In this document: positions 24,416 to 54,662 of the stretch, in pieces
Layout of the letters: each line of letters starts with the position of its first letter
Position numbering within the stretch: the first letter of the stretch is position 1
Program-made: the position numbers and the translations under genes
The notes under the pieces: generated by a model
Database searches by the model: none
What the model saw: only the letters and a program-made list of their open reading frames with translations
What the model was told of the DNA's origin: nothing
Origin: Chryseolinea sp. H1M3-3
GTDB taxonomy: Bacteria > Bacteroidota > Bacteroidia > Cytophagales > Cyclobacteriaceae
Reading direction: 5' to 3'
DNA: 64,000 nt
NCBI RefSeq assembly: GCF_029360725.1
Contig: NZ_JARKMY010000019.1
Span: 248,001 to 312,000 of the forward strand

Positions 24416-24432
24416 CTCTTTACCCCATTAGC

Positions 24433-27282: not shown

Positions 27283-27376
27283 GCTTCCAAAAAAATATTC
27301 TATGGTATCGAAACAATACAACGCAACACAAACCCTTCAGCACTTACCACAACAACGCTCCAATACTTTTTCCGAC

Positions 27377-29233: not shown

Positions 29234-29362
29234 AATGGATGCAACCGATTTAAATTAAAATAAATGAACTTTTTCACTTATTATTCCCTGAATTTTATTT
29301 ACTTGACGAAAGGGAGAAACCCAAGCTCCCAGTTAGTCATTAACCTAAACCCAAACAGCCGT

Positions 29363-32365: not shown

Positions 32366-32383
32366 AAATAAATGATTACGAAC

Positions 32384-33997
32384 ATGAAAAAATCAATAAA
32401 GCGAATTATAACGGTAGGGCTAGGGATCACATGCTTCACGATGTCCTGTACGAATCTTGATGAAGAAGTGTACGATACTGTCATTGCAGATAAATTCTTT
32501 AAAACGGAGGATGAATTTATTGCATCCCTGGGTCAGGCCTACTCCTCATTTGGCGGCATTGGAAATCACTCAAACTTATGGTCAATCAATGAGATCTCAA
32601 GTGATGAAATAGTTGTGTCCACAAAAGGAGGGGATTGGTATGATGGTGGCGTGTTACTCCAATTGCATGAGCATAAGTTTGCCCCTGATAACGGTTTCTT
32701 CAATAATGCATGGACGTTTATTTACGGTGGTATTAATGCTTGTAATCGTCTCATATTCCAGTTCAAAGCCCTGGGCACGCCTGAAGCTGAAGCTTTTATA
32801 ATAGAACTTCGTGCCGTTCGTGCACTTTGGTATTATTGGGCAGTTGATGCGTTTGGGAATGTTCCGTTGGTGGTAGATTTTGAAGATGCTGAGCCACCGG
32901 CAACAGCGTCGCGTCAGGAAGTATTCAATTTTATTGAAAGTGAGTTAAATGAAGTGATACCATTATTACCCACGGCAAAAGATGCATCGACCTATGGTCG
33001 AATGACTAAATGGTCTGCGCTCGCAGTAAGATGCAAGCTCTATCTGAACGCCGGCGTATATACAGGCACTCCACAGTGGCAAAAAGCAGCGGATGACGCG
33101 AATGAAATCATCACCAACGGTGGCTATATGTTGGAAGATGATTATAAGTCGAACTTTGCTGCCAACAATGCCCGCTCAACAGAAAACATCTTTGTTTATC
33201 CTTACGATAAGGTGTTCGCACCTGGCTTCAATTGGATCGCAATGACACTTTCTGTCGCCAGCACCCCGACCCTGAATTTAACGTTTCAACCCTGGAATGG
33301 ATATCAGACCGTGGAAGAGTTTTATAACTCGTACATAGATCCCGCTCAGAATCCAGGACCTCAGGGCCCCGTTTGGAAAGGCCTTACCAAAGACCTTAAT
33401 CAGGACGGCATCTCAGATGATGTAGGTACACAAGATCTCCGGTTGTCCAACTTTATTGTCGGGCCACAGTACAATCAAGACGGAACACGTACTCTCGATG
33501 GAGGTTTTGAAGCAAATGATTTCGATGGAGCCCCCGTCACGTTCACGCCGCAGTTGAACGAGATATATCCACAAGGTTTGAGACAAGCAGGTGCTCGAAT
33601 CGGCAAGTATGAGTTTGAAGTTGGTAGCACTGAAAATATGAGCAACGACTTCGTTATCTTCAGATTGTCAGATATCATATTATCTCTTGCTGAAGCAAAA
33701 CATCGCTTAGGGCAAACCGCTGAAGCTTTAATATTGGTAAATACCATTCGGGAAAGAGCAGGGGTAGATCCATATCTTACCCTGACAGACGACCTTCTTT
33801 ATGCTGAAAGAGGACGTGAAATGTATGCTGAAATGACGCGCAGGCAAGATCAGATCCGCTTTGGTAAATGGGATGATGCGTGGTGGGAAAAAGACGTGAG
33901 TGCACCTCACTACCAATTGTTCCCAATTCCAAAAGCACAGCTTGATGCTAATGATAAGCTTGTGCAAAACCCTGGCTACCCGGGTGCCGGAGGATAA
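32384..33997 (+). CDS. Second SusD-family lipoprotein
   Basis: Partner of the preceding SusC, 537 residues from the ATG at 32384 (MKKSIKRIITVG). Lipobox cysteine C22 (TMSCTNLDEE) is followed by acidic residues, suggesting surface export. RagB/SusD features: ELRAVRALWYYWAVDAFGNVPLV, FRLSDIILSLAEA, and the C-terminal block ERGREMYAEMTRRQDQIRFG with LFPIPKAQL. It differs from the first SusD in loops, so a different glycan is likely. A strong terminator starts 17 bases after the stop, so the pair forms a closed unit or is only weakly read through into the next array. Confidence 0.93.
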   Translation: MKKSIKRIITVGLGITCFTMSCTNLDEEVYDTVIADKFFKTEDEFIASLGQAYSSFGGIGNHSNLWSINEISSDEIVVSTKGGDWYDGGVLLQLHEHKFAPDNGFFNNAWTFIYGGINACNRLIFQFKALGTPEAEAFIIELRAVRALWYYWAVDAFGNVPLVVDFEDAEPPATASRQEVFNFIESELNEVIPLLPTAKDASTYGRMTKWSALAVRCKLYLNAGVYTGTPQWQKAADDANEIITNGGYMLEDDYKSNFAANNARSTENIFVYPYDKVFAPGFNWIAMTLSVASTPTLNLTFQPWNGYQTVEEFYNSYIDPAQNPGPQGPVWKGLTKDLNQDGISDDVGTQDLRLSNFIVGPQYNQDGTRTLDGGFEANDFDGAPVTFTPQLNEIYPQGLRQAGARIGKYEFEVGSTENMSNDFVIFRLSDIILSLAEAKHRLGQTAEALILVNTIRERAGVDPYLTLTDDLLYAERGREMYAEMTRRQDQIRFGKWDDAWWEKDVSAPHYQLFPIPKAQLDANDKLVQNPGYPGAGG

Positions 33998-34176: not shown

Positions 34177-37100
34177 ATGCGATTGTATTTTAAGCTTATC
34201 TGTTCGATCATCCTTGTATTCTTAGGCTCCTGCTCTGTTCCGGAAAATAAAACTTCATCCGATACCTTATTTAAACTTCGCTCGCCTGAGGAAACCGGAA
34301 TTAACTTTATAAACCAGCTCGACTATACGGAGCAATTAAACACTTATACTTACAAGAACTTTTACAGCGGTGGAGGCGTTGGCCTCGGAGATTTTAATAA
34401 TGATGGCCTGATTGATATATTTTTTTCTGGAAACCTGGTTCCAAACAAATTGTATCTTAATAAAGGCAACTGGAAATTTGAAGACATTTCAACCACCTCC
34501 GGTGTCAGCATCAACGGAGTTTGGACAACCGGGATCAGTGTAGTAGATATTAATGGCGACGGGCTCTTGGATGTTTATCTATGCAAATCGGGACCACCCG
34601 GAGGCGCAAGAAGGCATAATGAATTATTTATTAATAATGGCGATCTTACGTTTACGGAAAGAGCCAAGGCGTATGGCCTTGCCTTTGAAGGTCTTTCTAC
34701 GCACGCGGCGTTTTTTGATTTCGATAAAGATGGCGACTTAGACTGCTATTTATTAAACAATTCTTTTCGATCTGTGGGTGGATATGACCTCCGCGTCGGG
34801 CAGCGAAATCTTCCCGATCCATCAGGGGGGAATAAACTTTTGAGAAATGATAACGGAAAATATGTTGACGTAAGCGAAAAAGCAGGCATCTACACGAGCG
34901 CAATCGGTTTTGGTTTAGGCATTACGATTGGCGACTTGAATAAAGATGGTTGGCAGGATATGTATGTGTCCAACGATTTTTTTGAAAAAGATTATTTATA
35001 CATCAACAATGCTGACGGAACATTTAAGGAATCGCTGGAAGAATACATGCAAGAGATAAGCCTTGGCTCGATGGGTGCAGACATGGCAGACATCAACAAT
35101 GATGCGTTTCCGGAAGTTTTTGTAACGGAGATGCTACCCGAACATGATGATCGACTAAAGACGACCACACAGTTTGAAAGTTGGGACAAATATAATTTGA
35201 ATTTGAAAAACGGATATTTCCGACAATTCAGCCGTAATGTTTTACAGTTCAACAATGGGAACAATACCTTCAGTGAAATTGCTCGGCTTTCAGGCGTCCA
35301 TGCGACTGACTGGAGTTGGGGCGCTTTAATTTTTGATATGGACAATGATGGGCAAAAAGATATTTTTGTTGCCAATGGAATTTATAAAGAGCTTTTGAAC
35401 CAAGACTATGTTAATTATGCTTCGAACCCAAAGTTTATACAGGAAATATCAAGCAAAAAAGAAGGCGTCATCACAAAATTGATCGATTCTATTCCGTCTA
35501 CGCCAATAAGCAACTATGTCTTTCATAACCAGGGTAACCTATCCTTTAAAAACAAGACAAGGGAATGGGGGCTGGATGTTCCCACGCATTCCAATGGATC
35601 GGCTTACGGCGATCTGGACAATGACGGCGACCTGGATTTGATTTTGAACAACGTCAATATGCCCTCGATGGTCTTTGAAAATCAGGCAAAACAAATATTG
35701 CCGCGCAATAACACGCTTTCATTTGTTATGCATGGGGACCAGGCTAATTCATTTGCGCTGGGCACAAAAATAACCATAAGAACAGGTAATCAATCAATTT
35801 ATCAGGAACTGTCACCGATGCGTGGGTTCATGTCAACTGTGGATAACCGGATTCATGTAGGCGTGGGTAATGTTGCCTTCGTCGATACAATTGTAGTAGC
35901 CTGGCCTAACGATAAGGTAACAATGTTATCGAATGTGAAATCCAATCAAGTTATTCACCTGTATCAAAAAGATGCATCGGTGATTACAAGACCAGATAGC
36001 GCAAAAAAAATTAACCAAACGATCTTCGACCCTATCCCTAAAAAGAAAGGCATCGCTTTTTGTCATGTTGAAAATGAATATGTCGATTTTGATCGAGATC
36101 GGCTATTATTTAATATGGTCTCAAACGAAGGCCCCTGTTTATGCACAGGCGACGTGAATGGTGATGGTCGCGAAGACTTTTATGTGGGAGGAGCCAAAGA
36201 TCAGTCGGGAAGGTTATTCATTCAAAAGCCCTCTGGGGCGTTTGCCGCCTCGGATACAACCGTTTTTGAAAAGGATAAGGAGTCCGAAGATACAGACTGT
36301 ATTTTTTTTGATGCTGACAGTAACGGTTCGCTCGACCTTTATGTGACCAGCGGTGGCGTGGAATTTTCCAGGAGTTCACCTGCGTTGCTCGATCGGCTTT
36401 ACCTTAATGATGGTAGCGGGAAACTCAAAAAAATTAATCAACCGTTGCCCGTGTCAACAAATTTTGAGAGTACGGGTACCGTTGTTTCAAATGATTATGA
36501 CAAAGATGGAGATCAGGATTTATTCGTCGGTGCAAGATTAATCCCATTTGCATATGGAACTCCAGCTAATGGCTACATCCTCAACAATGATGGAAAAGGG
36601 AATTTCACGAATGTAACAAAGACCATTGCTGTTCAAATCACTAAGTTGGGCATGATCACGGGCGCGCAATGGATTGATGTAAATAATGACGGTTTTCAGG
36701 ACTTGGTGATCGTAGGCGAATGGATGCCTATTAAAATATTCGTTCAGGAAAATGGCAAGTTTGTGGATCGGAGTTCCGAATATGGGTTCGACAAAACGGA
36801 AGGTTGGTACAATGCGATTGAAGCCGGTGATTTTAATAAGGATGGCTACGTTGACTTGGTAGTCGGAAATCACGGCATAAATTCTCGGTTCAAAGCGTCA
36901 AGAACCGAACCTGTGTCGATGTACATCAATGACTTTGATCAAAATGGAACTGTGGAGCATATCATAACACAATATGATAAGGGTAAGTCTTATCCAATGG
37001 TTCTTCGGCAGGATATGGTGACGCAAATCCCGTCGCTGAAAAAAAAATACCTGCGTTATAAGGATTATAAAGAAAAGACGATGGAAGAAATTTTCTCTGC

Positions 37101-37509
37101 CGATCAACGCCAGGGAACTACCGTATTGAATGCCTATTCATTTCAAACAGCGGTTTGGCTGAATACTGGAAAGTCGTCATTTCTTAAGATAGACTTGCCC
37201 ATTCAGGCACAATTTTTTCCTGTATATGCCCTTCATCTCGATGATTATGATTACAATGGCACCTTGGATATTTTAATGGGAGGAAACCTTCATAGGGCGA
37301 AACCAGAGACGGGTATTTATGCCGGTGGTTATGGCCTTCTTTTATCTGGCGACGGACACGGTGGATTTAAGGCTGTTGCTGCAGAAAAATCCGGGCTTAA
37401 AATAAAAGGTGAGATCCGGGGCTTCAGGAAGATAAATAATGGTGAAGGAGCAATATTACTGGTGGCTAAAAATAATGATACGATTGAAGTATTAAATTTA
37501 TCAAAATGA
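34177..37509 (+). CDS. Double seven-blade FG-GAP/VCBS lipoprotein with ASPIC/UnbV segment, copy 1
   Basis: A large surface-type lipoprotein of 1110 residues (start chosen at 34177, seven codons inside the frame, to give a clean signal peptide with lipobox C19 in LGSCSVP). It contains fourteen Asp-rich calcium-loop motifs of the DxNxDGxxD type. The first set of seven runs from DFNNDGLID to DLDNDGDLD, then comes an ASPIC/UnbV-like segment (MRGFMSTVDN, HVGVGNV, VVAWPND), then a second set of seven from DVNGDGRED to DYDYNGTLD. Such repeats fold as integrin-like beta-propellers, so two seven-blade propellers are expected. A conserved insert with TQIPSLKKKYL lies between loops 13 and 14. Bacteroidota homologues are annotated as VCBS or CRTAC1-family proteins, without known function. 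First gene of a closely packed operon. Confidence 0.88.
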   Translation: MRLYFKLICSIILVFLGSCSVPENKTSSDTLFKLRSPEETGINFINQLDYTEQLNTYTYKNFYSGGGVGLGDFNNDGLIDIFFSGNLVPNKLYLNKGNWKFEDISTTSGVSINGVWTTGISVVDINGDGLLDVYLCKSGPPGGARRHNELFINNGDLTFTERAKAYGLAFEGLSTHAAFFDFDKDGDLDCYLLNNSFRSVGGYDLRVGQRNLPDPSGGNKLLRNDNGKYVDVSEKAGIYTSAIGFGLGITIGDLNKDGWQDMYVSNDFFEKDYLYINNADGTFKESLEEYMQEISLGSMGADMADINNDAFPEVFVTEMLPEHDDRLKTTTQFESWDKYNLNLKNGYFRQFSRNVLQFNNGNNTFSEIARLSGVHATDWSWGALIFDMDNDGQKDIFVANGIYKELLNQDYVNYASNPKFIQEISSKKEGVITKLIDSIPSTPISNYVFHNQGNLSFKNKTREWGLDVPTHSNGSAYGDLDNDGDLDLILNNVNMPSMVFENQAKQILPRNNTLSFVMHGDQANSFALGTKITIRTGNQSIYQELSPMRGFMSTVDNRIHVGVGNVAFVDTIVVAWPNDKVTMLSNVKSNQVIHLYQKDASVITRPDSAKKINQTIFDPIPKKKGIAFCHVENEYVDFDRDRLLFNMVSNEGPCLCTGDVNGDGREDFYVGGAKDQSGRLFIQKPSGAFAASDTTVFEKDKESEDTDCIFFDADSNGSLDLYVTSGGVEFSRSSPALLDRLYLNDGSGKLKKINQPLPVSTNFESTGTVVSNDYDKDGDQDLFVGARLIPFAYGTPANGYILNNDGKGNFTNVTKTIAVQITKLGMITGAQWIDVNNDGFQDLVIVGEWMPIKIFVQENGKFVDRSSEYGFDKTEGWYNAIEAGDFNKDGYVDLVVGNHGINSRFKASRTEPVSMYINDFDQNGTVEHIITQYDKGKSYPMVLRQDMVTQIPSLKKKYLRYKDYKEKTMEEIFSADQRQGTTVLNAYSFQTAVWLNTGKSSFLKIDLPIQAQFFPVYALHLDDYDYNGTLDILMGGNLHRAKPETGIYAGGYGLLLSGDGHGGFKAVAAEKSGLKIKGEIRGFRKINNGEGAILLVAKNNDTIEVLNLSK

Positions 37510-38075
37510 AAATTAACGGTTTATTGTTCTTTGGCTTGGTAGGTTGTTGTATGTCAATGATGTCATGTGGTCGAGGCAAAGAATTGCTATCAGAAAAAAA
37601 TTACGATAGTCTGTTCTTGGGCATTCACCTCGGAATGACAAGATCCGAGTTCTACGATCACTGCGCCGAGCTAAATCGCTTAAAAGTATTTACGCACGGT
37701 CCTACCAATACCAGTGTTGAGTATATGCTGACAAGCGAGCTCGAGAAACCCGTTGTAATGCGGTTTTATCCTTCTTTTTATAAAGATAGAATTGTCGACA
37801 TGCCGGTCACTTTTTCCTATGAAGCCTGGGCACCCTGGAATAAGCAGTTCAGTTCAGATTCTCTGTTGACTAAAATGCTTCCTGTCTTTAAAAAATGGTA
37901 TGGCGAAGATTTTAAGGTGATACAGCATCCATCTCAGGGAAAAGTATACGTTAAGATGGATGGGAAGCGAAGGATAAATTTATTCCTTCGAGATGATCAG
38001 TTCGTGCAAGCGGTTTTTACAGATCTTGCATTAGAAAAAGAAAGGAAAAGGGAAGAGGCTGAGAAAAGCAACTGA
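37506..38075 (+). CDS. Small lipoprotein of unknown function inside the array
   Basis: A protein of 189 residues, starting within the last four bases of copy 1 (ATGA overlap), so translation is coupled. Signal peptide with lipobox C21 (MMSCGRGK). Residues about 38-60 (LFLGIHLGMTRSEFYDHC) resemble a GMT/S-x-x-EF-x-x-x-C motif seen in small uncharacterised Bacteroidota proteins. The middle is beta-rich with many aromatics (FYPSFYKDRIVD), and the C-terminus is a charged helix (EKERKREEAEKSN). Its place between two paralogous propeller lipoproteins suggests a shared function or a partner role, for example in periplasmic handling. I do not recognise the family. Confidence 0.75.
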   Translation: MKINGLLFFGLVGCCMSMMSCGRGKELLSEKNYDSLFLGIHLGMTRSEFYDHCAELNRLKVFTHGPTNTSVEYMLTSELEKPVVMRFYPSFYKDRIVDMPVTFSYEAWAPWNKQFSSDSLLTKMLPVFKKWYGEDFKVIQHPSQGKVYVKMDGKRRINLFLRDDQFVQAVFTDLALEKERKREEAEKSN

Positions 38076-38085
38076 ACGGTCATCA

Positions 38086-41000
38086 ATGTTCTATAAATCT
38101 GACTTTGTTTCGTGGTGTATCGTGGTCTTAGTAGCTACCGGTTGCTCGACACGGGAAAAAAAACACGATCCGCTTTTTACCGAACTGGATGCTGACCGCA
38201 CTGGAATCGCCTTTGCTAATACGCTATCGTTCGACAAGGACTTTAACATTTATACATATCGCAATTATTACAACGGGGGGGGTGTTGCACTGGGCGATAT
38301 CAATAACGATGGTCTTCTCGATGTGTACCTCACCGGAAATATTGTACCCAACAAACTATTTTTGAACAAGGGCGACTTCAGGTTTGAAGATATCACGGAA
38401 AAGGCGGGCGTGGCAGGGAAGAGAGCTTGGTCAACTGGTGTGAGCATGGCGGATGTCAATGGCGACGGCCTGGTTGATATTTATGTCTGTAACTCCGGCG
38501 ACGTAAAAGGCGACAATAAACAAAATGAACTGTTCATTAATAATGGGGACCTGACGTTTACGGAGCGCGCCCAGGAGTACGGAATTGCGGATCGCGGTTA
38601 TACCACACACGCGGCTTTTTTCGATTATGACAAAGACGGTGACCTTGATTTATACATACTCAACAACTCGTATCAGGCGATAGGCAGTTTTAATCTTCGG
38701 AAAAATGAACGCCCACAACGGGATTCGCTGGGCGGTGACAAACTTTTGCGTAATGATGGAAACAAGTTTATTGACGTCAGTGCGGAAGCCGGCATTTATG
38801 GAAGTGTAATTGGTTTTGGATTGGGCGTAACGGTCGGCGATGTAGATAAAGATGGTTGGTTGGACATTTATGTCTCCAATGATTTTTTTGAACGCGATTA
38901 TTTATACATCAACAATCATGACGGTTCATTTAAGGAAAGCCTTACAGAACAAATGAAGTCTATTAGCGGGGCATCAATGGGAGCAGACCTGGCGGATATC
39001 AACAATGATGCTTACGCTGATATTTTCGTAACGGAAATGTTGCCTAAAGAAAATTCACGGCTAAAAACCGTTACTACATTCGAAAACTGGGATCGGTATA
39101 ATTATAGTGTGCAAAACGATTACTATCACCAGTTTACAAGAAATATGCTTCAATACAACAATGGTGATGGAAGTTTTAGTGAGATCGGACGGTTAGCCGG
39201 CGTTGAGGCCACGGACTGGAGCTGGGGCGCATTAATATTCGACATGGACAATGATGGTCTAAAAGATATTTTTGTATCGAATGGTATTTTCCAGGATTTG
39301 ACAAATCAGGATTATCTTCAATACGCCTCAAACCCGGAGATTGTGAAAAATGTTGTGTCCGGAAATGGCGTAGATTATAAAAAGCTCATAGAACCAATTC
39401 CATCGGTACCAATTCCAAATTTTGCTTTTCATAATCAAGGTAACTTACGTTTTGTTGATAAAGCCAGTGAATGGGGATTGGGTGAACCGAATTTTTCGAA
39501 TGGTTCTGCCTATGGAGATTTAGATAATGATGGAGATTTAGACTTAGTCATCAACAACGTTAATAGCGAAGCGTCAGTTTTTCGAAATGAAACTAATCAG
39601 CGTTTAATTAATCGCTATTTGAAGTTTGAATTGAAGGGGATGGGTAAAAATACATCGGCATTTGGCACAAAGATCACTATACTACACAAGGATAAAACTT
39701 TTTACCTGGAACAGATGCCCATCCGAGGTTTTGAATCCTCCATGGATCCTCGCCCAAACATAGGACTGGGGAAGATTGATACCGTCGAAAGAATTGTGGT
39801 TGAATGGCCCGATGGAAATGGCGAACTCCTTTTTGATGTGCCCACTAATCAAACTTTGATTCTTGAGCAAAAGAATGGTGTTCCTCTTCAGAGCATTAAA
39901 TTGTACCAGCCCGAAGTAATTAACGTTGATCCTACATTTACACCCGCTAAAGATGTTGCCGAATTCCTGCACAAAGAAAATGATTTTGTAGACTTTGATA
40001 GAGACCCGTTGATCTATCATATGCTAAGCATGGAGGGTCCGCGTATGACAATGGGAGATGTTAATGGAGATGGGCGCCAAGATTTTTACATCGGTGGAGC
40101 CAAAGATCAACCCGGCGCATTGTTTATTCAAACCGACAACGGGGGATTTAAGCGCACAAATGAAAAGGTCTTTGTAAAAGACCAGGCCGCTGAGGATATG
40201 GCAAGCACATTTTTTGATGCCGATAATGATGGTGATGTCGATTTGTATGTGTGCAGTGGAGGGAACGAATTTTCAAATGTGTCTACTGCTTTAATTGACA
40301 GGTTATACATCAATGACGGCAAGGGTAATTTTAGTAAATCAAACCAGGTACTTCCCACGTCAAAGTTTGAGAGTACATCTACCGTCAGTGCGGCAGATTA
40401 CGATAGCGATGGTGATCAGGATCTATTCGTAGGCGTCCGGCTTCTTCCATTTTCGTATGGCGCACCAATGAGTGGATACATTTTAAATAATGACGGAAAC
40501 GGAAATTTTAAAAATGTAACTGCTGAAATCGCGCCGGAGCTGACCAACGTAGGGATGATCACGGATGGGGTATGGGCTGACATTGACGGTGACAACGATT
40601 ATGACTTGCTTATTATTGGGGAATACATGCCAGTGAAAATTTTTTTAAATAATGAGGGGAAGCTGAAGGATCGGACATCGGAATCAGGCCTTAGTAAAAG
40701 CAATGGCTGGTGGAACCGCCTGGAAGGTTCTGATTTAGATCATGACGGCGATATTGATTTTGTTATAGGTAATCATGGCTTGAATTCAAGATTTAGGGCC
40801 TCCGTTGATCAACCTGTATGTATGTACATCAACGATTTTGATCAAAATGGCACAGTCGAACAAATCATATGCACATACAATGGAGTTACAAGCTATCCTA
40901 TGGCCCTCCGGCATGATTTGGTAAAACAAATACCTTCTTTGAAGAAGAAATACTTGAAATATGAGAATTATAAAGATCAGACAATAACTGACATATTCTC

Positions 41001-41415
41001 GCCTGAGCAGATCAAGCAGTCGTCCAAACTTGATGCATATGAGTTTTCAACGAGCATTTTGATCAACCAGGGACATGGAAAATTTTCATTGCGACCGCTT
41101 CCGATTGAAGCGCAGCTATCTCCCGTATACGGAATTGAAATAGCGGATATTGACAGTGATAATCATCCGGATATACTATTGGGCGGTAATTTGTATAAAG
41201 CAAAGCCAGAGGTGGGGCGCTACGATGCGAGTTATGGAGTCTTTTTAAAAGGGGATGGAAAAGGAAATTTTAAGCCAGTTTCTTCAAAAGATTCAGGTAT
41301 TAAAATGGATGGTGAGGTAAGAGATATCATTTACGTTAAAACAGAACAGGGTGACCTGATTTTAGCTGCCCGCAATAACGATTCAATCTTAGCATTTAAG
41401 AAGAAGAAAAAGTGA
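38086..41415 (+). CDS. Double seven-blade FG-GAP/VCBS lipoprotein with ASPIC/UnbV segment, copy 2
   Basis: Paralogue of the first copy, 1109 residues, lipobox C20 (ATGCSTREKK). Seven Asp-rich loops run from DINNDGLLD to DLDNDGDLD, then the ASPIC/UnbV-like part (IRGFESSMDPRPNIGLG, VVEWPDG), then seven more loops from DVNGDGRQD to DIDSDNHPD. The blocks ATDWSWGALIFDMDNDG and KQIPSLKKKYLKYENYK are almost the same as in copy 1. It begins ten bases after the small lipoprotein gene, and its stop overlaps the GTG start of copy 3. The close similarity in sequence, length and module order shows tandem duplication. Location: outer membrane surface by analogy with SusD-type lipoproteins; role unknown. 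Confidence 0.88.
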   Translation: MFYKSDFVSWCIVVLVATGCSTREKKHDPLFTELDADRTGIAFANTLSFDKDFNIYTYRNYYNGGGVALGDINNDGLLDVYLTGNIVPNKLFLNKGDFRFEDITEKAGVAGKRAWSTGVSMADVNGDGLVDIYVCNSGDVKGDNKQNELFINNGDLTFTERAQEYGIADRGYTTHAAFFDYDKDGDLDLYILNNSYQAIGSFNLRKNERPQRDSLGGDKLLRNDGNKFIDVSAEAGIYGSVIGFGLGVTVGDVDKDGWLDIYVSNDFFERDYLYINNHDGSFKESLTEQMKSISGASMGADLADINNDAYADIFVTEMLPKENSRLKTVTTFENWDRYNYSVQNDYYHQFTRNMLQYNNGDGSFSEIGRLAGVEATDWSWGALIFDMDNDGLKDIFVSNGIFQDLTNQDYLQYASNPEIVKNVVSGNGVDYKKLIEPIPSVPIPNFAFHNQGNLRFVDKASEWGLGEPNFSNGSAYGDLDNDGDLDLVINNVNSEASVFRNETNQRLINRYLKFELKGMGKNTSAFGTKITILHKDKTFYLEQMPIRGFESSMDPRPNIGLGKIDTVERIVVEWPDGNGELLFDVPTNQTLILEQKNGVPLQSIKLYQPEVINVDPTFTPAKDVAEFLHKENDFVDFDRDPLIYHMLSMEGPRMTMGDVNGDGRQDFYIGGAKDQPGALFIQTDNGGFKRTNEKVFVKDQAAEDMASTFFDADNDGDVDLYVCSGGNEFSNVSTALIDRLYINDGKGNFSKSNQVLPTSKFESTSTVSAADYDSDGDQDLFVGVRLLPFSYGAPMSGYILNNDGNGNFKNVTAEIAPELTNVGMITDGVWADIDGDNDYDLLIIGEYMPVKIFLNNEGKLKDRTSESGLSKSNGWWNRLEGSDLDHDGDIDFVIGNHGLNSRFRASVDQPVCMYINDFDQNGTVEQIICTYNGVTSYPMALRHDLVKQIPSLKKKYLKYENYKDQTITDIFSPEQIKQSSKLDAYEFSTSILINQGHGKFSLRPLPIEAQLSPVYGIEIADIDSDNHPDILLGGNLYKAKPEVGRYDASYGVFLKGDGKGNFKPVSSKDSGIKMDGEVRDIIYVKTEQGDLILAARNNDSILAFKKKKK

Positions 41416-44400
41416 TCCGTAATTTCTATCTTATCACGAGCGTACTTTTTTGTGTATTGTTGGCTATCGGGTTACAAAGCTGTCAAAACAATCAAAAAAG
41501 GAATCAGCTTTTTTATAAGGTCCCAGTTTCACAAACAAACGTAAATTTTGAAAACACCCTTAAAGACTCCGACGATTTTAACATCATCGAGTATTTATAT
41601 TTTTACAACGGTGGGGGAGTAGCATTAGGGGATATTAATAATGATGGATTAGCAGATATTTACTTTTCATCAAATCAGCAATCAAACAAGCTCTACCTGA
41701 ATAAGGGAAAATTTGCCTTTGAAGATATTACATCGAAAGCGGGCGTCTCGGGCATTGGAAATTGGAAAACAGGAGTAACAATGGCCGATGTAAATGGCGA
41801 TGGGTTCCTCGATATATTCGTATGCGGTGTTGGGAACTATAAACAATTCAATGGCAGGAATCAACTTTTCATCAATAATGGTAACCTTACTTTTTCGGAA
41901 AAGACTGACGAGTATGGCTTAACTTTCCGGGGGTTCTCTACTCAGGGCTCTTTTTTTGATTATGATAATGATGGTGATCTCGACCTGTATCTTGTCAATC
42001 ATTCCGTCCATACGCGAAGATCCTATGGCAATGCAACGCTACGATTTCAAAGTGATTCGCTAGCCGGAGACAAGTTGTATCGAAACGAATTGATTCCCAC
42101 TGGCAAAACCTATTTCAATGATGTTACTTCGGAAGCTGGAATTTTAAACAGTCAAATCGGGTATGGCCTGGCCGTTGGAATTTCGGATCTTAATCTGGAT
42201 GGATATTTAGATATTTACGTGTCCAACGATTTTAATGAAAATGATTACCTCTATATAAATCAGCGCAATGGAACATTCACTCAAGAATTGGAAAAGGCGA
42301 TCCCACATTCAAGTCGATTCTCAATGGGAAACGATATTGCCGACATCAACAATGATGGCTTGATGGATATCGTGACTTTAGACATGCTGCCAAAAAATGA
42401 AAAGGTAATAAAAACGACCGCCGGCGAGGATCCTTATGAGATATACGAGTTTAAACTCCAGCATGGATATCACTATCAATTTGCAAGAAATACTCTTCAG
42501 CTAAACCGTGGATGTGATGATACAAATAATTTAATGTTTAGTGACGTTGCATCTCTTGCTGGAATAGAGGCTACGGATTGGAGTTGGGCTCCACTGTTGG
42601 CCGATTTTGACAATGATGGTTACAAAGATCTCTTTGTAGCTAATGGCATCGTTGGAAGACCAAATGACTTGGACTATATTAATTTTATCGTGCGCGATTC
42701 ATCGCAGCGCTATCTTTCCGATCAACAGCTTGTTGAACAAATGCCTTCCGGTAAAGTACCAAATGTTTTTTTTAGGAATCAAGGGAATTTGTCGTTTCAG
42801 GATGTTTCAGTCTCATGGATAGGAAGTGAACCCAGTTTGTCTAATGGAGCATCTTATGCAGATCTGGACAACGATGGCGATTTGGATTTGGTGGTCAACA
42901 ATATTAATGAAAAGGCTTTCCTATACCGCAATGATTTAGGACAAAAAGATTTCAATTTTCTGAAAATTAAATTTGAAGGCAACGGCGCCAATCGATTCGG
43001 CATCGGTGCGAAAGTCTTGGTCTTTACAGGGAATAAAAAAATTATACACGAGCAAATCCCTTCGCGAGGTTGGTTATCTTCTGTTGATTACACGATGCAT
43101 ATCGGACTTGGAAATGAAAAGGTGGATTCAATTTCTATTCGTTGGACAGACAACAAAACTCAGACATTGAAAACTATCCAGCCAAGAGAAACGATTACGG
43201 TAAAACAATCAGATGCATTTGTTCAGCATCAAAAAGTGCGGGAGGCTGGCCATCAGCTGCTCCACGAAGGTATTGAACATTTATTCACACACAAAGAAAA
43301 TAACTTTACGGCCTTTAATACCGAACGATTGATTCCTCACACATTAACCACGCAGGGCCCAAAAATTGCTGTCGGCGATGTTAATGGGGACAAGGTCGAC
43401 GATTTTTTCGTGTGTGGTGCAGCCCGACAACCAAGTGCGATTTTTATTCAAAATAAAAATGGTGACTTCGTTCAATCTGTTCAGCCGATCATTGAATCAG
43501 ATTCATTAGCAGAAGATGTTGATGCCACCTTTGCGGATGTAGACGGTAATGAAACACTGGATTTAATTGTAGTAGGAGGAGGACAAGAATTCAAAGGAAG
43601 GAGTAAGAATCTTTTGGCCCGCTTATACCTAAATGATGGGCACGGAAAATTTGTTAGAGCCGAAGAAAATCTTCCAGACATATTTGTTAATGCGTCGTGT
43701 GTAGAACCAGGAGACGTAGATAATGACGGCGATATCGATTTGTTCATCGGAGGCCGAGTAATTTCAGGAACATACGGAGTAGATCCACCAAGTGTCTTGC
43801 TGATAAATAATGGCAGAGGCATTTTTCAAGAGGAAACTTCGCGTTTGGTTCAACACGAAAATAATACCACAACACTGGGGATGGTGACCGACGCTGTGTG
43901 GCAAGACGTCAATAACGATGCAAGAACTGATTTAGTTGTCGTCGGTGAGTGGATGCCCATTACAGTAATGATTCAAGATGAATCAGGTTTTTTCAAAAAC
44001 AAAACAAAGGCATACGGCCTGGAGCAAACCAATGGATGGTGGAATACCATTTCAGCGCACGATTTTGACAAAGACGGAAACGTTGATTTTGTTGTCGGCA
44101 ACCTGGGTCATAATTCTCGTCTAAAGGCTACCATAAACGAGCCAGTAAGCATTTTTATCGGCGACATCGACAATAACAATAGCCTCGATCACATCTTAAC
44201 GTATTACAACCAGGGCGAGCGTTATCCTATAACATCACGCGACCAACTTGTAAAACAGATACCATCCCTGAGGCGTAAGTTTCTAAAATATGATGCTTAC
44301 AAGAATGTTAAACTTGAGGACATTCTTGATCAGAACAGTCAAAAGAAGTTTAGCCGGAAGGATGCATATACATTTAGCTCGGTGTACGTTCAGAACACAG

Positions 44401-44747
44401 GAAAAGATAAATTCTTAATACGTCAACTTCCCATTGAAGCACAGATGTTCCCAATCTTTTCGTTTAATGTCGATGATCTAAATGACGACGGCAATGCCGA
44501 TATTTTAATGGTAGGAAATTTAGATGCCGTCCAGCCAGATTTCGGTCGTTATGATGCTGGTTATGGCTTAGTTATAATGGGCGACGGCAAGCACGGTTTT
44601 AAATCCCTTGAGGCGCAACAATCTGGCTTTGTCGTCAAAGGACAAGGGAGGGATATTAAGGTGTTAAAAGATTATAAGAACAAAAAAAGATTTGCAGTTT
44701 CCAGAAACAACGCGAGTATTAAGGTATTCATAAAAGGGAAAAATTGA
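41412..44747 (+). CDS. Double seven-blade FG-GAP/VCBS lipoprotein with ASPIC/UnbV segment, copy 3 (GTG start)
   Basis: Third paralogue, 1111 residues. The start is GTG, overlapping the stop of copy 2 (GTGA), and gives a good signal peptide with lipobox C24 (GLQSCQNNQ). The same 7 + 7 Asp-loop pattern is present (DINNDGLAD to DLDNDGDLD, then DVNGDKVDD to DLNDDGNAD) around the ASPIC/UnbV-like part (SRGWLSSVDYTMHIGLGN). This copy is the most diverged of the four: several loops are degenerate (DVDGNETLD, DVNNDARTD, DIDNNNSLD), copy 3 has YITSRDQ where copies 1 and 2 have YPM-LR, and the insert motif reads KQIPSLRRKFL. A hairpin terminator seven bases after the stop closes this operon. Confidence 0.88.
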   Translation: MIRNFYLITSVLFCVLLAIGLQSCQNNQKRNQLFYKVPVSQTNVNFENTLKDSDDFNIIEYLYFYNGGGVALGDINNDGLADIYFSSNQQSNKLYLNKGKFAFEDITSKAGVSGIGNWKTGVTMADVNGDGFLDIFVCGVGNYKQFNGRNQLFINNGNLTFSEKTDEYGLTFRGFSTQGSFFDYDNDGDLDLYLVNHSVHTRRSYGNATLRFQSDSLAGDKLYRNELIPTGKTYFNDVTSEAGILNSQIGYGLAVGISDLNLDGYLDIYVSNDFNENDYLYINQRNGTFTQELEKAIPHSSRFSMGNDIADINNDGLMDIVTLDMLPKNEKVIKTTAGEDPYEIYEFKLQHGYHYQFARNTLQLNRGCDDTNNLMFSDVASLAGIEATDWSWAPLLADFDNDGYKDLFVANGIVGRPNDLDYINFIVRDSSQRYLSDQQLVEQMPSGKVPNVFFRNQGNLSFQDVSVSWIGSEPSLSNGASYADLDNDGDLDLVVNNINEKAFLYRNDLGQKDFNFLKIKFEGNGANRFGIGAKVLVFTGNKKIIHEQIPSRGWLSSVDYTMHIGLGNEKVDSISIRWTDNKTQTLKTIQPRETITVKQSDAFVQHQKVREAGHQLLHEGIEHLFTHKENNFTAFNTERLIPHTLTTQGPKIAVGDVNGDKVDDFFVCGAARQPSAIFIQNKNGDFVQSVQPIIESDSLAEDVDATFADVDGNETLDLIVVGGGQEFKGRSKNLLARLYLNDGHGKFVRAEENLPDIFVNASCVEPGDVDNDGDIDLFIGGRVISGTYGVDPPSVLLINNGRGIFQEETSRLVQHENNTTTLGMVTDAVWQDVNNDARTDLVVVGEWMPITVMIQDESGFFKNKTKAYGLEQTNGWWNTISAHDFDKDGNVDFVVGNLGHNSRLKATINEPVSIFIGDIDNNNSLDHILTYYNQGERYPITSRDQLVKQIPSLRRKFLKYDAYKNVKLEDILDQNSQKKFSRKDAYTFSSVYVQNTGKDKFLIRQLPIEAQMFPIFSFNVDDLNDDGNADILMVGNLDAVQPDFGRYDAGYGLVIMGDGKHGFKSLEAQQSGFVVKGQGRDIKVLKDYKNKKRFAVSRNNASIKVFIKGKN

Positions 44748-44753
44748 GATAAG

Positions 44754-44772
44754 AAAAAGCTTTGTGCTTTTT
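44754..44772 (+). terminator. Terminator after copy 3
   Basis: Arms AAAAAGC and GCTTTTT pair over seven bases around the loop TTTGT; the 3' arm supplies the T-run. It separates copies 1-3 from copy 4, which has its own 198-base upstream region (TATATTTT near 44919-44926 is a possible -7 element there). Confidence 0.65.
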
Positions 44773-44945
44773 AATTTTGCTGTTGAGATCGTGAAGAATG
44801 ATTATAGACAGGAAATAATGTAACGGTTTCAGAACTAATCGAGCCAGAATTGCTCCTGAATTTTTAAACAGCCACTAAGAAGAACCTGCTAAAGTTATTA
44901 ATACCTGCCGTCTTTTTTATATTTTTCTGATTCATAAAAAAAAGG

Positions 44946-47900
44946 ATGCGGTTATTGTTATTTTTTTTGATTATTGGTGTATTAGCCTGCCGCGAGAAAG
45001 ATGACTATACTGCTCGTCCAAATCCTAACGCCCTTTTTAAAAGGATGAGTTCAACAGAAACCGGAATTGCATTTGTTAATAAGGTAGAGACAACTGATGA
45101 ACTGAATGTATTCCGTTATCGCAATTTTTACAACGGAGGCGGTGTTGGCCTTGCTGACTTCAACAATGATGGATTATCAGATGTGTTTCTCACTTCAAAC
45201 ATGGGCCCCAATAGGCTTTTTATCAACAAAGGGGACTGGAAGTTTGAAGACATAACGGAACCTTCCGGAATCGCGGGCACAAAGGCCTGGTCAACAGGTG
45301 TAAGTGTTGTTGATATCAATGCCGATGGTTTTCTCGACATCTATGTTTGCAATGCAGGTGATGTAAAAAACGGCAATCGTGAAAACGAACTATTCATTAA
45401 CAATGGCAATCTCACATTCAAAGAAAGCGCAGCTCAGTATGGGTTAGCGGACAAAGGATTTGGCACCCACGCGGCTTTTTTTGATTACGATAAAGATGGG
45501 GATCTGGATTGTTATGTTTTGAACAATTCCTATAAACCTGTTTCATCGCTCGGATATCGAAACCTCAGAAATGTTCGTGATGAATTTGGAGGACACAAAC
45601 TGTACCGAAACGACAATAATAAGTTTGTGGATGTCAGCGAATCGGCTGGAATTTTTGGGAGCGTAATAGGGTTTGGGCTGGGCGTTACTGTGGGCGATGT
45701 CAACCAGGATTCCTGGCCTGACATTTATATCTCCAACGATTTTTATGAACGTGATTACCTCTATATCAACAACGGAGACGGTACATTCAATGAAAGCCTG
45801 GAAAAATACATGGGCCACATCAGCATGTTTTCGATGGGAGCTGATCTGGCTGATTTGAATAACGACGGGTATCCGGAAATATTTTCAACGGATATGCTAC
45901 CCGAAGACGACATTCGTTTAAAAACACTAACGGCATTTGAAACATATGATGTATATCAACTGCGCATACGAAACGGATATTACCATCAGTTCATGCGAAA
46001 CATGCTTCATCTCAATAACCGGGACGGAAGTTTTACAGAAATGGGAGAACTCGCCGGCGTATCTGCTACCGACTGGAGTTGGGGTGCATTGATCGCCGAT
46101 TTTAATAACGACCAGCATAAAGAAATATTTGTTTGTAATGGCATCTACAAAGATCTTATCAACCAGGACTTCGTAGAATATTTAGGAAGTAGCGACCAAA
46201 TGCGGACCGCAATCGAAGGAAAGGAAATCGACTTCGAAGAGTTTACAGAAAAAATGCCTTCTCAAAAACTTAGCAATTTTTTATTTGCGCAACAGGACGA
46301 TCTTCAATTTAAGAACAAGGCAAAAGAGTGGGGGCTGGATGAACCAAGTTTTTCGAACGGTGCCGCTTATGGCGACTTAGATAATGATGGTGATTTAGAT
46401 CTGGTTGTTAATAATGTAAACCAGGAAGTTTTTGTTTATCAAAACAGAAGTCGCGAGTTGAATCAAAACAACTACTTAGCGTTCAGTTTTAAAGGAAACA
46501 AAAAAAATGTTTTCGGTTTAGGTGCCACGGTGCAAGCTTATGTGGATTCAGGTGTTTTGGCCTTTGATCATATGCCCATTCGTGGATTTCAATCAAGCAT
46601 GGATTATAAAATCATTATTGGGTTAGGTAAACTTGAACAGGTAGATAGCCTGGTCGTTACATGGCCCGACCGGAGGGTTCAGATAATGAAGGATGTAAAG
46701 GCAAATCAATTGCTTACCGTCTCAAATGAAGCAGCGAAGGACCTTAAAGTCATGCCGGCTAGAATTGTGCCGCTGTTAAGCCCCGTAAAGAATGATTCAA
46801 TCGTTCATTACGAAAATACATTTAACGATTTCGATCGCGATCGTCTCAAATATCACATGTTGTCTACCCAAGGTCCTGCATTTGCAAAAGCTGATATTAA
46901 TAAGGATGGTCTTGATGATTTCTATTTAGGGGGATCAGCGGGTTATACCGGTGCAATTTATATTCAGCAAGCTGATAACAAGTTTAACGCGCTATCCGAA
47001 GTGTTCGCGGCAGATAGCGCTGCTGAAGATGTGGCTGCCGTTTTTTTTGACGCTGATAACGATGAAGACCTTGACCTGTATGTCGTAACAGGTGGAACGG
47101 AGAATACGACACAATCTATTCACCAAGTGGACCGGTTATATGTCAATGAGGGTATTAAAAACGGAACGCCGGTCTTTGAGAAATCTACGGACCGCATTCC
47201 ACTGATTTATCAAAGTGGAAGTTGTGTTAAGCCGGCCGATGTTGACAATGACGGCGATATAGATTTGTTCGTTGGTACACGCTTGTTGCCATCTTATTAC
47301 GGGTTGCCGTGCGATCAAGTGCTGTTGGTAAATGATGGCACTGGCACATTCAGAGATCAAACAGTAACCTTGGCTCCCCAACTCAAACAATTGGGAATGG
47401 TCACGGATGCACATTGGTTCGACTACGATAAGAATGGATTTTCCGATCTGCTTATCATTGGCGAGTGGATGCCTGTAACGCTGTTTATGAATGACGGAAA
47501 AAAATTAATGAAAGCAGAAAAAATTACGGGCGTTGATCATTCTGAAGGATGGTGGAACCGGCTTAAAGCCGTCGATATTGACAACGATGGTGATGAGGAT
47601 TTTGTCTTGGGAAATTTAGGTTTGAACTCCATATTTAAGCCCAATGCGTCGGCACCTGTTTCGCTATATGTTAGCGATTTTGACAAAAATGGATCCATAG
47701 AACCGATTTTCATTCACAACACGCAAGGCAGAGAATTTCCTTTTGCCCTTCGCCAGGACATCATCAAACAAATACCTTCCTTGAAAAAGGAGTTTGTCTT
47801 TTATAAAGATTATGCTGACAAAACAATTGAGGAAGTAGTTGACAAAGCCTCACTAAAAAAGGCGCACAAACTACAGTTTTATGAACCGCATACATCCTTA

Positions 47901-48251
47901 CTTGTTAACAACGGTACGAAAGGATTTAAATTAAAACATCTGCCTGTCGAGGCGCAGTATTCACCAGTTTATGGAATCGAGGTTTTTGATGTGGACGGGG
48001 ACCATATTGACGATCTTATTATTGGAGGTAATCTATTTGCGGTGAAACCAGAGGTTGGCCGGTATGATGGATTGCGGGGACTTGTTTTAAAGAACGATGG
48101 TCACGGCAACTTTAAACCATTAAGTTCAATAGAATCGGGATTGGCTATAGAAGGCGAGGTGAGACATATTAGCACCTTAAACAGCAAGGCCAATAAAACG
48201 CTCACTTTTATCCGTAATAATAATACCGTCGTATTCTACCGTATTAAATAA
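44946..48251 (+). CDS. Double seven-blade FG-GAP/VCBS lipoprotein with ASPIC/UnbV segment, copy 4
   Basis: Fourth paralogue, 1101 residues, with a very short signal peptide and lipobox C15 (GVLACREKDDY); the charged residues after the Cys fit a surface-export signal. Seven Asp loops run from DFNNDGLSD to DLDNDGDLD, then the ASPIC/UnbV-like segment (IRGFQSSMDYKIIIGLG, VVTWPDR), then seven loops from DINKDGLDD to DVDGDHIDD. The insert motif reads KQIPSLKKEFVFYKDY. Unlike copies 1-3 it is preceded by a terminator and a longer spacer, so it is expressed separately. Directly downstream lie the remains of a fifth copy and then a PAP2-type enzyme. Function unknown. Confidence 0.88.
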   Translation: MRLLLFFLIIGVLACREKDDYTARPNPNALFKRMSSTETGIAFVNKVETTDELNVFRYRNFYNGGGVGLADFNNDGLSDVFLTSNMGPNRLFINKGDWKFEDITEPSGIAGTKAWSTGVSVVDINADGFLDIYVCNAGDVKNGNRENELFINNGNLTFKESAAQYGLADKGFGTHAAFFDYDKDGDLDCYVLNNSYKPVSSLGYRNLRNVRDEFGGHKLYRNDNNKFVDVSESAGIFGSVIGFGLGVTVGDVNQDSWPDIYISNDFYERDYLYINNGDGTFNESLEKYMGHISMFSMGADLADLNNDGYPEIFSTDMLPEDDIRLKTLTAFETYDVYQLRIRNGYYHQFMRNMLHLNNRDGSFTEMGELAGVSATDWSWGALIADFNNDQHKEIFVCNGIYKDLINQDFVEYLGSSDQMRTAIEGKEIDFEEFTEKMPSQKLSNFLFAQQDDLQFKNKAKEWGLDEPSFSNGAAYGDLDNDGDLDLVVNNVNQEVFVYQNRSRELNQNNYLAFSFKGNKKNVFGLGATVQAYVDSGVLAFDHMPIRGFQSSMDYKIIIGLGKLEQVDSLVVTWPDRRVQIMKDVKANQLLTVSNEAAKDLKVMPARIVPLLSPVKNDSIVHYENTFNDFDRDRLKYHMLSTQGPAFAKADINKDGLDDFYLGGSAGYTGAIYIQQADNKFNALSEVFAADSAAEDVAAVFFDADNDEDLDLYVVTGGTENTTQSIHQVDRLYVNEGIKNGTPVFEKSTDRIPLIYQSGSCVKPADVDNDGDIDLFVGTRLLPSYYGLPCDQVLLVNDGTGTFRDQTVTLAPQLKQLGMVTDAHWFDYDKNGFSDLLIIGEWMPVTLFMNDGKKLMKAEKITGVDHSEGWWNRLKAVDIDNDGDEDFVLGNLGLNSIFKPNASAPVSLYVSDFDKNGSIEPIFIHNTQGREFPFALRQDIIKQIPSLKKEFVFYKDYADKTIEEVVDKASLKKAHKLQFYEPHTSLLVNNGTKGFKLKHLPVEAQYSPVYGIEVFDVDGDHIDDLIIGGNLFAVKPEVGRYDGLRGLVLKNDGHGNFKPLSSIESGLAIEGEVRHISTLNSKANKTLTFIRNNNTVVFYRIK

Positions 48252-48256: not shown

Positions 48257-48606
48257 ATTACAAATCGTCTTTCAACTAGTTTTTTATTCCTGTTGTTAGG
48301 TTGTAGCAGCAAAGAAAAAGGCAGTGGGGAATTTCTGAATGTTTCAATTGATCTGGGAAGAGGGAAATTTAAGTTCATTCCTTCCCGAAGTGGCGCAATT
48401 TTCACGCATGAATATTCATTATCATGTTTGATAAAGAGGAGTTATTAGACGTTATGCCCTCATGTTATTTTTATCATCCAAATACCCAAAATGGGTCGTT
48501 ATGACGGGCGCTATGGATTAATTCTTAAAGGGAAAGGGAATTTCCAAGCGTTATCTTCTTTCTAGCAATCAGCAATAATGATTCGTTGGGAGCCCTTAGC
48601 ATGTAA
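48257..48606 (+). pseudogene. Remnant of a fifth double-propeller lipoprotein gene
   Basis: This 592-base gap is not empty. In one frame it reads FLFLLLGCSSKEKGSGEF, a lipoprotein signal end with lipobox, with no ATG in front. It runs on into LGRGKFKFIP, which resembles the QGHGKFSLRPLP block found after loop 13 in copy 2. After a stop the same frame gives PKMGRYDGRYGLILKGKG and NFQALSS, clearly matching the C-terminal PEVGRYDASYGVFLKGDG block of the intact copies. After a frame change LAISNNDSLGAL matches their last residues (LAARNNDSILAF). So a fifth gene has lost nearly all of both propellers, joining its N-terminal end to C-terminal scraps. The rest of the gap (48607-48843) shows no coding signal. 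Confidence 0.75.
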
Positions 48607-48755
48607 ACTCCAAAACAAAGATGCTGGTTGTTGCCTCCCAAGAATGCTGACTTTATAAATTCAGATTTCATTCAGCTTTTGACTTTAGTTTAGGGAATTT
48701 ACTGAAAGAATTAACTGTTGTTTTTTTAAAATTTCGAATCGTCGCAAAGAGGGCG

Positions 48756-48843: not shown

Positions 48844-50190
48844 ATGAAGAAGTCTCTACTGAGTTTGGTAATCCTATGTGTGGTATTGTTTTCATGTTCC
48901 AGCGATGAAAAAGAGTGGAGATCAAAGGTTGACCGGGCCGATTTTTTACATCGTTCTGTAAAACAAGTCACAGATGTCATTGTGCATGATATTTTTTCGC
49001 CCCCGGTTGCGTCGCGTATATATGCGTATATGAGTGTTGCAGGCTATGAAGCTGCTATTCACCGTGATCAACAATATGTGTCAATGGCGGGCCAGCTAAA
49101 TGGACTTGAGACTGTCCCCGCACCTCAAGATGGCGTAGAGTATTGCTATCAGCTTTCCGCAGTTCAGGCAATGTTAAAAGTTGGAAGAAATTTGGTCTTC
49201 TCGGAAGACAAAATGGATGCTTTTTATGAAAAGATCATGAAAGAATTTAGGGACACTGGCATACCCGATGAGGTTTATGAACGGTCTGTCGCCTACGGTA
49301 CCCAAGTGGCTGATCACATCATCGCATGGTCAAGTAAAGACAATTATAAACAAAGTCGTTCCTTTCCGAAATATTCTATTTTAGATGATCCGGCGACGTG
49401 GAAACCAACGCCGCCTGCCTATATGGATGCCATCGAACCGCACTGGAATAAGATTCGTACATTCGGAATAGACTCCGCCGGGCAATTTAAACCTAAGCCG
49501 CCAACCCCTTTCTCGATAGACAAAGAAAGCACTTTCTATAAGGAAGCCTTAGAAGTCTATGACATCGGAAAAAAAATGACACAAGAACAACGTGAAATCG
49601 CTTCCTTTTGGGATTGTAATCCATTTGTGATGAATGTAAAGGGCCATGTGATGTTTGCTACAAAGAAAATTTCACCAGGTGGGCATTGGATGAATATTAC
49701 ACACGTGGCGTGTGCGAAGACCAAAGCAGACTTTGTAAAGGCGGCGGAAGCTTACATGCGAGTATCCGTATCGTTATTCGACGGTTTTGTGTCATGCTGG
49801 GACGAGAAGTATAGAAGCAGATTAATACGCCCTGAAACCTACATAAATCAATACATAGACGAAAACTGGGTGCCACTTTTACAAACACCGCCCTTCCCTG
49901 AGTATACCAGTGGCCATAGCGTTATTTCTGCCGCCGCAGCGGTAACATTAACAGATCTTTTTGGTGATAACTTTTCTTTTGTTGATTCTACTGAAATTGA
50001 GTTTGGCCTAACATCCCGGTCGTTTAAATCCTTTCAAGAAGCATGCGAAGAGGCGGCAGTTAGTAGGATGTATGGCGGAATACACTACAGGCCTGCGTTT
50101 GAACTTGGACTCGTGGAAGGTAAGGCAGTGGGTACCTATATCCTCTCCAAAATAAAAACAAGGAGAGAAGACTTAACAATCAGCCAATAG
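48844..50190 (+). CDS. PAP2-fold lipoprotein, vanadium haloperoxidase/acid phosphatase type
   Basis: A helical enzyme of 448 residues. Signal peptide with lipobox near residue 18 (VLFSCSSDEK), so anchored to a membrane. The active-site signature of PAP2 phosphatases and vanadium haloperoxidases is complete and correctly spaced: KxxxxxxRP at K322-P330 (KYRSRLIRP), SGH at S356-H358 (YTSGHS) and SRxxxxxH at S407-H414 (SRMYGGIH). The N-terminal 300 residues are far longer than in small PAP2 phosphatases and fit the vanadium-haloperoxidase-related branch. Whether it binds vanadate and oxidises halide or hydrolyses phosphate esters cannot be told from these motifs. It directly follows the propeller array and may act with it. 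Confidence 0.87.
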   Translation: MKKSLLSLVILCVVLFSCSSDEKEWRSKVDRADFLHRSVKQVTDVIVHDIFSPPVASRIYAYMSVAGYEAAIHRDQQYVSMAGQLNGLETVPAPQDGVEYCYQLSAVQAMLKVGRNLVFSEDKMDAFYEKIMKEFRDTGIPDEVYERSVAYGTQVADHIIAWSSKDNYKQSRSFPKYSILDDPATWKPTPPAYMDAIEPHWNKIRTFGIDSAGQFKPKPPTPFSIDKESTFYKEALEVYDIGKKMTQEQREIASFWDCNPFVMNVKGHVMFATKKISPGGHWMNITHVACAKTKADFVKAAEAYMRVSVSLFDGFVSCWDEKYRSRLIRPETYINQYIDENWVPLLQTPPFPEYTSGHSVISAAAAVTLTDLFGDNFSFVDSTEIEFGLTSRSFKSFQEACEEAAVSRMYGGIHYRPAFELGLVEGKAVGTYILSKIKTRREDLTISQ

Positions 50191-54655: not shown

Positions 54656-54662
54656 TTTTGAA

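Follow-up and report, generated by a model that had tools for sequence, protein, structure and literature searches.

What do very large lipoproteins with paired propellers contribute to a bacterium, and why would a single cluster encode several of them? The question is raised by a 64,000-nucleotide stretch of Chryseolinea sp. H1M3-3 (contig NZ_JARKMY010000019.1, positions 248,001 to 312,000 of the forward strand; hereafter the window), in which an initial annotation had recognised four genes, here called V1 to V4, for lipoprotein-like proteins of about 1100 residues. We suggest that the V proteins are accessory lipoproteins, acting in capture or docking at the cell surface for the SusC/SusD importer encoded with them, and we put the probability of this reading, which draws on sequence comparison, at roughly 0.55. 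In our view their function is better read from the operon, with its SusC/SusD pair, its haloperoxidase homologue and the alpha-glucoside genes nearby, than from the propellers alone.

An operon type around the V genes

The four open reading frames (ORFs) are present where they had been placed, all on the forward strand, and encode 1110 (V1, 34177–37509), 1109 (V2, 38086–41415), 1111 (V3, 41412–44747, with a GTG start) and 1101 residues (V4, 44946–48251, an extra copy), the length of V1 being counted from an ATG and rising to 1117 residues from an alternative TTG start at 34156. As a tandem array of four, the set stands with regard to the V genes themselves; it is interrupted between V1 and V2 by a gene for a 189-residue lipoprotein-like protein, s (37506–38075, forward strand). 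Together with s, the initial annotation had overlooked three neighbours on the same strand: an upstream pair consisting of SusC, a TonB-linked outer-membrane barrel (29264–32365; NCBIfam TIGR04056, 697 bits, above cut-off), and the SusD lipoprotein SusD2 (32372–33997; Pfam SusD_RagB, 4.4e-24); what is left of the C-terminal part of another V gene, decayed and interrupted by in-frame stops, at approximately 48338–48637 (tblastn to V C-termini, best E 3.5e-8); and, downstream, a gene for a 448-residue, lipoprotein-like homologue of vanadium-dependent haloperoxidases, H (48844–50190). Four-base overlaps join the stop of V1 to the start of s and V2 to V3, as in an operon. The s protein has no match in Pfam or NCBIfam and its best relative in the Protein Data Bank (PDB) by profile search is not significant (E 0.32); with homologues in 50 of 79 loci, 48 of which were used for its alignment, it appears to represent an unnamed conserved family of lipoprotein-like proteins.

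These 79 fetched loci derive from the best 80 of at least 422 confirmed relatives, so that the sample favours close relatives of the query, and their neighbour maps were drawn from ORFs of at least 100 residues compared by BLAST with the window proteins, most neighbours having no assigned family. As judged from gene order, the V genes belong to an operon type SusC-SusD-V1-s-V2-V3-H that is shared across Bacteroidota. SusC and/or SusD lie upstream in 50 of the 65 V runs having at least 4.5 kb of upstream sequence, H lies within 2.5 kb downstream in 29 of 62, and VsVVH (12), VsVV (11) and VVH (8) lead the patterns seen in the 54 runs whose flanks are long enough at both ends. Co-occurrence across 148 Bacteroidota genomes points in the same direction: V is found in 45, H in 34 and both in 32 (Fisher p 1.1e-19, with no correction for kinship). 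Of the 45 strong H matches (E < 1e-100), 33 have a listed V match no more than 12 kb away and 12 do not, and the proportion among all H matches is 33 of 54; at most five V candidates were scored per genome, and these linkage figures are lower bounds.

Two further observations concern the distribution and the company of the operon. V homologues of 1132–1162 residues occur in metagenome-assembled genomes labelled Neomarinimicrobiota and Calditrichota (loci L069, L080 and L090), two of these loci having SusC/SusD as well, so that the module possibly extends outside Bacteroidota, unless these bins are mixed. A protein of about 300 residues, with a GyrI-like domain in the two members scanned, recurs in 11 loci (L077, L081, L083, L084, L086, L087, L089, L091, L092, L094 and L096).

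Architecture of the V proteins

In all four V proteins FG-GAP repeats (PF13517) and one ASPIC/UnbV domain (PF07593) exceed the Pfam gathering score, with 10, 10, 8 and 9 FG-GAP_3 stretches per copy and a single UnbV_ASPIC match within residues 524–595. A relaxed pattern for Asp-rich loops finds exactly 14 loops, seven before and seven after ASPIC, in each copy, bearing out the count first reported, and shuffled controls (500 per sequence) average 0.7–1.1 loops with a maximum of 6; the strict pattern Dx[DN]xDGxxD finds 10, 10, 10 and 7 loops in V1 to V4. The plan persists in an alignment of 75 sequences (71 homologues and the four window copies, selected from 170 that were eligible, the structure alignments excluding two with unknown residues). 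Each of the 14 loop sites keeps four ligand-type positions in 64–75 of the 75 sequences, the weakest being sites 11 (66/75) and 14 (64/75), and under a slightly looser site test all 14 predicted calcium-loop sites are kept in 49 of the 75, the other 26 keeping 11–13. Length is also nearly constant, with 176 of 217 V-type ORFs, across 97 loci, measuring 1067–1149 residues; the 35 shorter ORFs include pieces cut by locus ends. The earlier suggestion that the architecture is conserved as a whole is thus upheld by both the loop plan and the lengths.

A structural model is consistent with this picture. AlphaFold2, applied to V2, gives two propellers flanking ASPIC (predicted local distance difference test score, pLDDT, 92.9; predicted template modelling score, pTM, 0.92), and V2 from residue 604 onward folded alone gives pLDDT 96.6 and pTM 0.94. 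The number of blades was read from DSSP strand lists for V2, not from coordinates. In these the first propeller, P1, has seven S1-S2 units, strand 31–34 at the N-terminus closing the last of them, and the second, P2, has eight, of which the fifth is short and seven carry a calcium loop, the last unit (1077–1106) being the one that lacks it and probably being closed by strand 618–621. Two seven-blade propellers had been predicted; the model bears this out for the presence of two propellers around ASPIC and for P1, which is probably seven-bladed, and departs from it for P2, which is probably eight-bladed. A Foldseek search with the P2 half, in which the root-mean-square deviation (rmsd) was at least 8.4 among the 50 matches listed, does not decide between seven and eight blades. 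Cys20 is invariant in all 75 aligned proteins and follows a predicted helix at residues 2–18, as seen in alignment and model, and a lipoprotein-like start followed by two calcium-loop propellers joined by ASPIC, as originally described, is supported. Outside the loops P1 is better conserved than P2 (mean 0.615 versus 0.505); P2 also holds near-invariant polar residues that are not part of the loops, for example N896, N900, Q948, Q1010, N1035 and R1079.

How the copies are related

If several V proteins are encoded together, one may ask whether they are recent duplicates or distinct components. A FastTree phylogeny with a midpoint root was built from 186 V proteins, namely 182 of the 217 V-type ORFs (at least 1040 residues) and the four window copies, four of the 12 rows from the host genome itself duplicating the latter. 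Of the 30 copies preceding H, 26 fall in one clade of 68 rows, together with 22 of the 26 copies that come after another V, and the other 118 rows hold 56 of the 58 copies found after SusD and 40 of the 42 found after s. Within these lie a V1 clade (support 100) with 41 of the 58 after-SusD copies and a V2 clade (support 82) with 34 of the 42 after-s copies, and Saprospiraceae, Cyclobacteriaceae and Flavobacteriaceae are all represented in each of the V1, V2 and V3 clades. The window copies fall in the matching positional clades, V1 grouping with genes that follow SusD elsewhere, V2 with genes that follow s, and V3 in the clade with most pre-H copies; V4 is sister to a copy from Chryseolinea serpens (L045). 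Since the copies group largely by operon position across families and not by genome, the V proteins would appear to be mostly old, different subunits and not a variable set. Recent tandem duplication, or a diversifying array, was considered and rejected on the tree, the other copies being only 44–56% identical to V1 (56, 44 and 47% for V2, V3 and V4).

The host genome has 12 full-length V copies, four in this cluster and the other eight spread over seven regions. By BLAST, three of these regions have SusC and SusD homologues, two more have a SusC homologue, two have H, and one is without any of the three.

The haloperoxidase homologue

Residues 1–438 of H align to PDB 4cit (phmmer E 6.3e-162), which has the same sequence as 4usz. 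In an alignment of 33 rows, the window protein and 32 homologues, residues K322, R329, S356-G357-H358, R408 and H414 are conserved at 95% or more; they correspond to Lys, Arg, Ser-Gly-His, Arg and His, which we take to be the motif of the PAP2-type vanadate site. The 4usz entry is the vanadium iodoperoxidase of Zobellia galactanivorans (PMC5064120), and by its likeness to this enzyme H is a putative haloperoxidase. A search for the genes closest to 4cit covered 299 genomes from the family to which Maribacter (G148) belongs. In one of them (G151) a V-V-V-H run has as its last gene one that is 98% identical to 4cit, with SusC, SusD and a LacI homologue upstream; in another (G386) a gene 87% identical closes the order LacI, SusC, SusD, V, V, V, H, with beta-phosphoglucomutase and a family GH65 glycoside hydrolase (GH) beyond LacI. 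In Arenibacter C-21, which has at least five homologues of the Zobellia iodoperoxidase, iodine uptake requires glucose, oxygen and calcium (PMC5064120).

Downstream of H, on the reverse strand (50192–53682), lie genes for a DUF4249 protein and for an 806-residue protein that by eye resembles a TonB receptor, with homologues in 7 and 5 of the 79 loci, respectively.

Sugar genes in the neighbourhood

Which substrate might such an importer take up? On the reverse strand the window encodes a LacI-family regulator (16833–17882; Pfam LacI and Peripla_BP) and a GH31 alpha-glucosidase-like enzyme (14294–16699; NCBIfam MalA, 455 bits, below the cut-off of 800), and on the forward strand, 10 kb past H, a beta-phosphoglucomutase and a GH65 phosphorylase-like enzyme (60615–63678; TIGR01990 and NF010380, above cut-off). 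In several relatives a LacI homologue lies directly upstream of the operon SusC. The GH31 gene is syntenic with the operon in L020 and L045, where a series MFS-GH31-LacI immediately precedes the operon SusC. The same series is found in the window, with LacI separated from the operon SusC by a starch Sus cluster (18094–29233) that comprises SusC, SusD, a SusE/F-like protein and two alpha-amylase-family enzymes; as L020 and L045 are without the starch cluster at that place, it was either gained in the window genome or lost in the relatives. LacI, beta-phosphoglucomutase and GH65 genes adjoin the operon in G049, G134 and G386. A second type of GH65 gene occurs near V or H, passing the kojibiose-hydrolase cut-off in all six cases tested, and 6 of the 15 kojibiose-hydrolase matches in the 148 genomes have a listed V match no further than 12 kb away, against a random expectation of 0.18.

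The region 53945–63678 of the window encodes a glycerol facilitator-like protein, GlpK and a GlpD-like protein, then an ROK kinase, a PfkB-like kinase and the beta-phosphoglucomutase and GH65 enzymes, and several of these genes recur beside the operon in relatives. MIP, GlpK and GlpD genes lie downstream of the operon in the window and in L045, and MIP and GlpK in G146. Kinases in L033, L045 and L081 are 60–78% identical to the window GlpK and those in L072 and L092 are 23–24% identical, the L072 kinase scoring best as a xylulokinase, below cut-off. The glycerol genes beside the operon offer a lineage-specific hint only. Glucosylglycerol, a cargo to which the glycerol link could have pointed, was rejected, since of the 80 glycerol-kinase matches in the 148 genomes two (the window and G146) lie, by eye, near a listed V match.

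Neighbour enzymes differ between lineages, and the context does not fix the substrate; the operon module may serve different substrates. In some lineages, that of the window among them, the LacI, GH65, beta-phosphoglucomutase, GH31 and kojibiose-hydrolase neighbours hint at alpha-glucosides. For this genome alpha-glucosides are our best guess, held tentatively and at somewhat less than even odds, and the guess does not extend to the whole family.

Comparison with known systems

In a single-sequence search CRTAC1 (cartilage acidic protein 1, PDB 9etn) is the sole PDB sequence with E ≤ 1 (8.5e-16), and it is the best Foldseek match both of the whole V protein and of P2. CRTAC1 is an animal protein with a single FG-GAP propeller, ASPIC/UnbV and an EGF-like domain. 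Its structure has 551 residues. A V protein has a lipoprotein-like start and continues behind ASPIC into a second propeller; no EGF-like domain is matched at E 0.001 in any of the four copies, which therefore depart from the CRTAC1 family plan. After CRTAC1, P2 matches propellers of aldos-2-ulose dehydratase, KICSTOR, LGI1 and integrins, with a query-normalised TM score of up to 0.50. The propeller of integrin alpha-subunits likewise has FG-GAP-type repeats with Asp-rich calcium loops (profile E 2e-6 to 1.5e-5). Integrin alpha is a eukaryotic adhesion receptor with one seven-blade propeller, fewer calcium loops and no ASPIC.

With the SusCD utilisomes for starch, levan and dextran the window operon shares a SusC/SusD pair directly upstream, accessory lipoproteins in the operon and sugar-catabolic neighbours. 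Between SusD2 and H, however, SusE/SusF-like and glycoside-hydrolase genes are missing from the window, which has the four double-propeller proteins, s and the haloperoxidase homologue instead. The gene list given for the dextran locus FjDexUL includes a kojibiose hydrolase and, as far as that list extends, no V-like, s or haloperoxidase protein (PMC10316084).

A proposed role and its alternatives

We propose that each V protein would form a rigid, calcium-filled double propeller, P1 and P2 on either side of ASPIC, and that V1, V2 and V3, joined here by V4, would occupy fixed positions in the operon and most likely work together in one complex. They would capture a small glycan or glucoside, or present it, above the SusD lid; SusC would import it, and intracellular GH65, beta-phosphoglucomutase and GH31 enzymes would use the imported sugar, the cargo in this genome likely being an alpha-glucoside. 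H, a frequent partner of the module, would act at the same surface.

Several observations weigh against this proposal or parts of it. No SusC or SusD is found upstream on the same strand in 15 of the 65 V runs, the pair being on the other strand in L055 and L062 and separated by intervening genes in L092, and H follows just 29 of the 62 runs. In the genomes with the closest relatives of 4cit, five other ORFs (G151) and one opposite-strand ORF (G386) lie between SusD and the first V. The V1 clade misses 17 of the 58 after-SusD rows, 10 of which, mostly from two-V operons, sit in a separate 16-row clade. The sugar context is similarly uneven: a LacI homologue is detected by BLAST in just 16 of the 79 loci, the beta-phosphoglucomutase and GH65 pair adjoins the operon in just 3 of 9 other mapped genomes, the window's own genome gives no kojibiose-hydrolase match at the threshold applied, and L032 and L060 have GH127 beta-L-arabinofuranosidase-like genes downstream of V. 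Against a single substrate it also counts that the operon often has no recognised enzyme beside it and that the glycerol cluster occurs in few loci. Finally, a small-sugar importer does not obviously need three or four proteins of about 1100 residues, or a haloperoxidase. A more ambitious version of the proposal, which we consider rather unlikely, is a phylum-wide outer-membrane machine in which SusCD, V proteins in fixed stoichiometry and a surface H act as a unit; an oxidative attack might, for instance, alter or release an alpha-glucoside at the surface, H being supplied with peroxide derived from glucose.

The near-invariant polar residues of P2 outside the calcium loops could also be read as traces of catalysis, the V proteins then being enzymes with a calcium- or metal-supported sugar active site in P2 and the paralogues carrying out successive steps or attacking different linkages. 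The sugar-converting aldos-2-ulose dehydratases, which come next after CRTAC1 among the 50 matches listed for P2 (query-normalised TM 0.49–0.50 versus 0.59), fit this idea. However, a TM score near 0.5 with an rmsd near 11 is a weak likeness among propellers, which resemble each other, and KICSTOR and LGI1 also reach 0.47–0.49 against P2; moreover, no catalytic motif was recognised in the V proteins, and outside the loops it is P1 that is the more conserved half. We regard an enzymatic role as unlikely. The operon could instead be primarily a system for halide or iodine, in which H would oxidise iodide at the surface, the V proteins would hold or channel the product or provide a calcium-dependent scaffold, and SusCD would import an iodinated or halide-bearing compound. 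Such a role would accord with the near-identical relative of the Zobellia iodoperoxidase at the end of a V-V-V-H run and with the needs of iodine uptake and the several enzyme homologues in Arenibacter C-21, but H does not follow 33 of the 62 V runs and is absent from 13 of the 45 V genomes, and the neighbours that recur and can be recognised are sugar genes, which makes this quite improbable.

A variable or diversifying set of surface receptors or adhesins, put forward in the initial annotation, would find some encouragement in the number of V genes, with 12 full-length copies in the genome, four of them in one cluster, and a further one decayed. It is nevertheless not supported: the grouping of the copies largely by operon position across families, the frequent linkage with SusC/SusD and H and the near-constant length and loop plan speak against it, and we consider it very improbable. 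The accessory role in capture or docking for the SusC/SusD importer is the reading that we prefer among these.

Implications for Bacteroidota

The domains, the SusCD system and the haloperoxidase family are already known; for their combination in one operon no paper was found by co-mention in the open-access literature, which omits most subscription journals. Through the operon type two orphan groups would acquire a genomic role, the large FG-GAP and ASPIC lipoproteins and the bacterial vanadium haloperoxidases, the latter because a gene 98% identical to that of the Zobellia enzyme ends such a V-V-V-H run. Should the encoded products assemble into a single complex, glycan uptake in Bacteroidota would be physically linked to halide chemistry.

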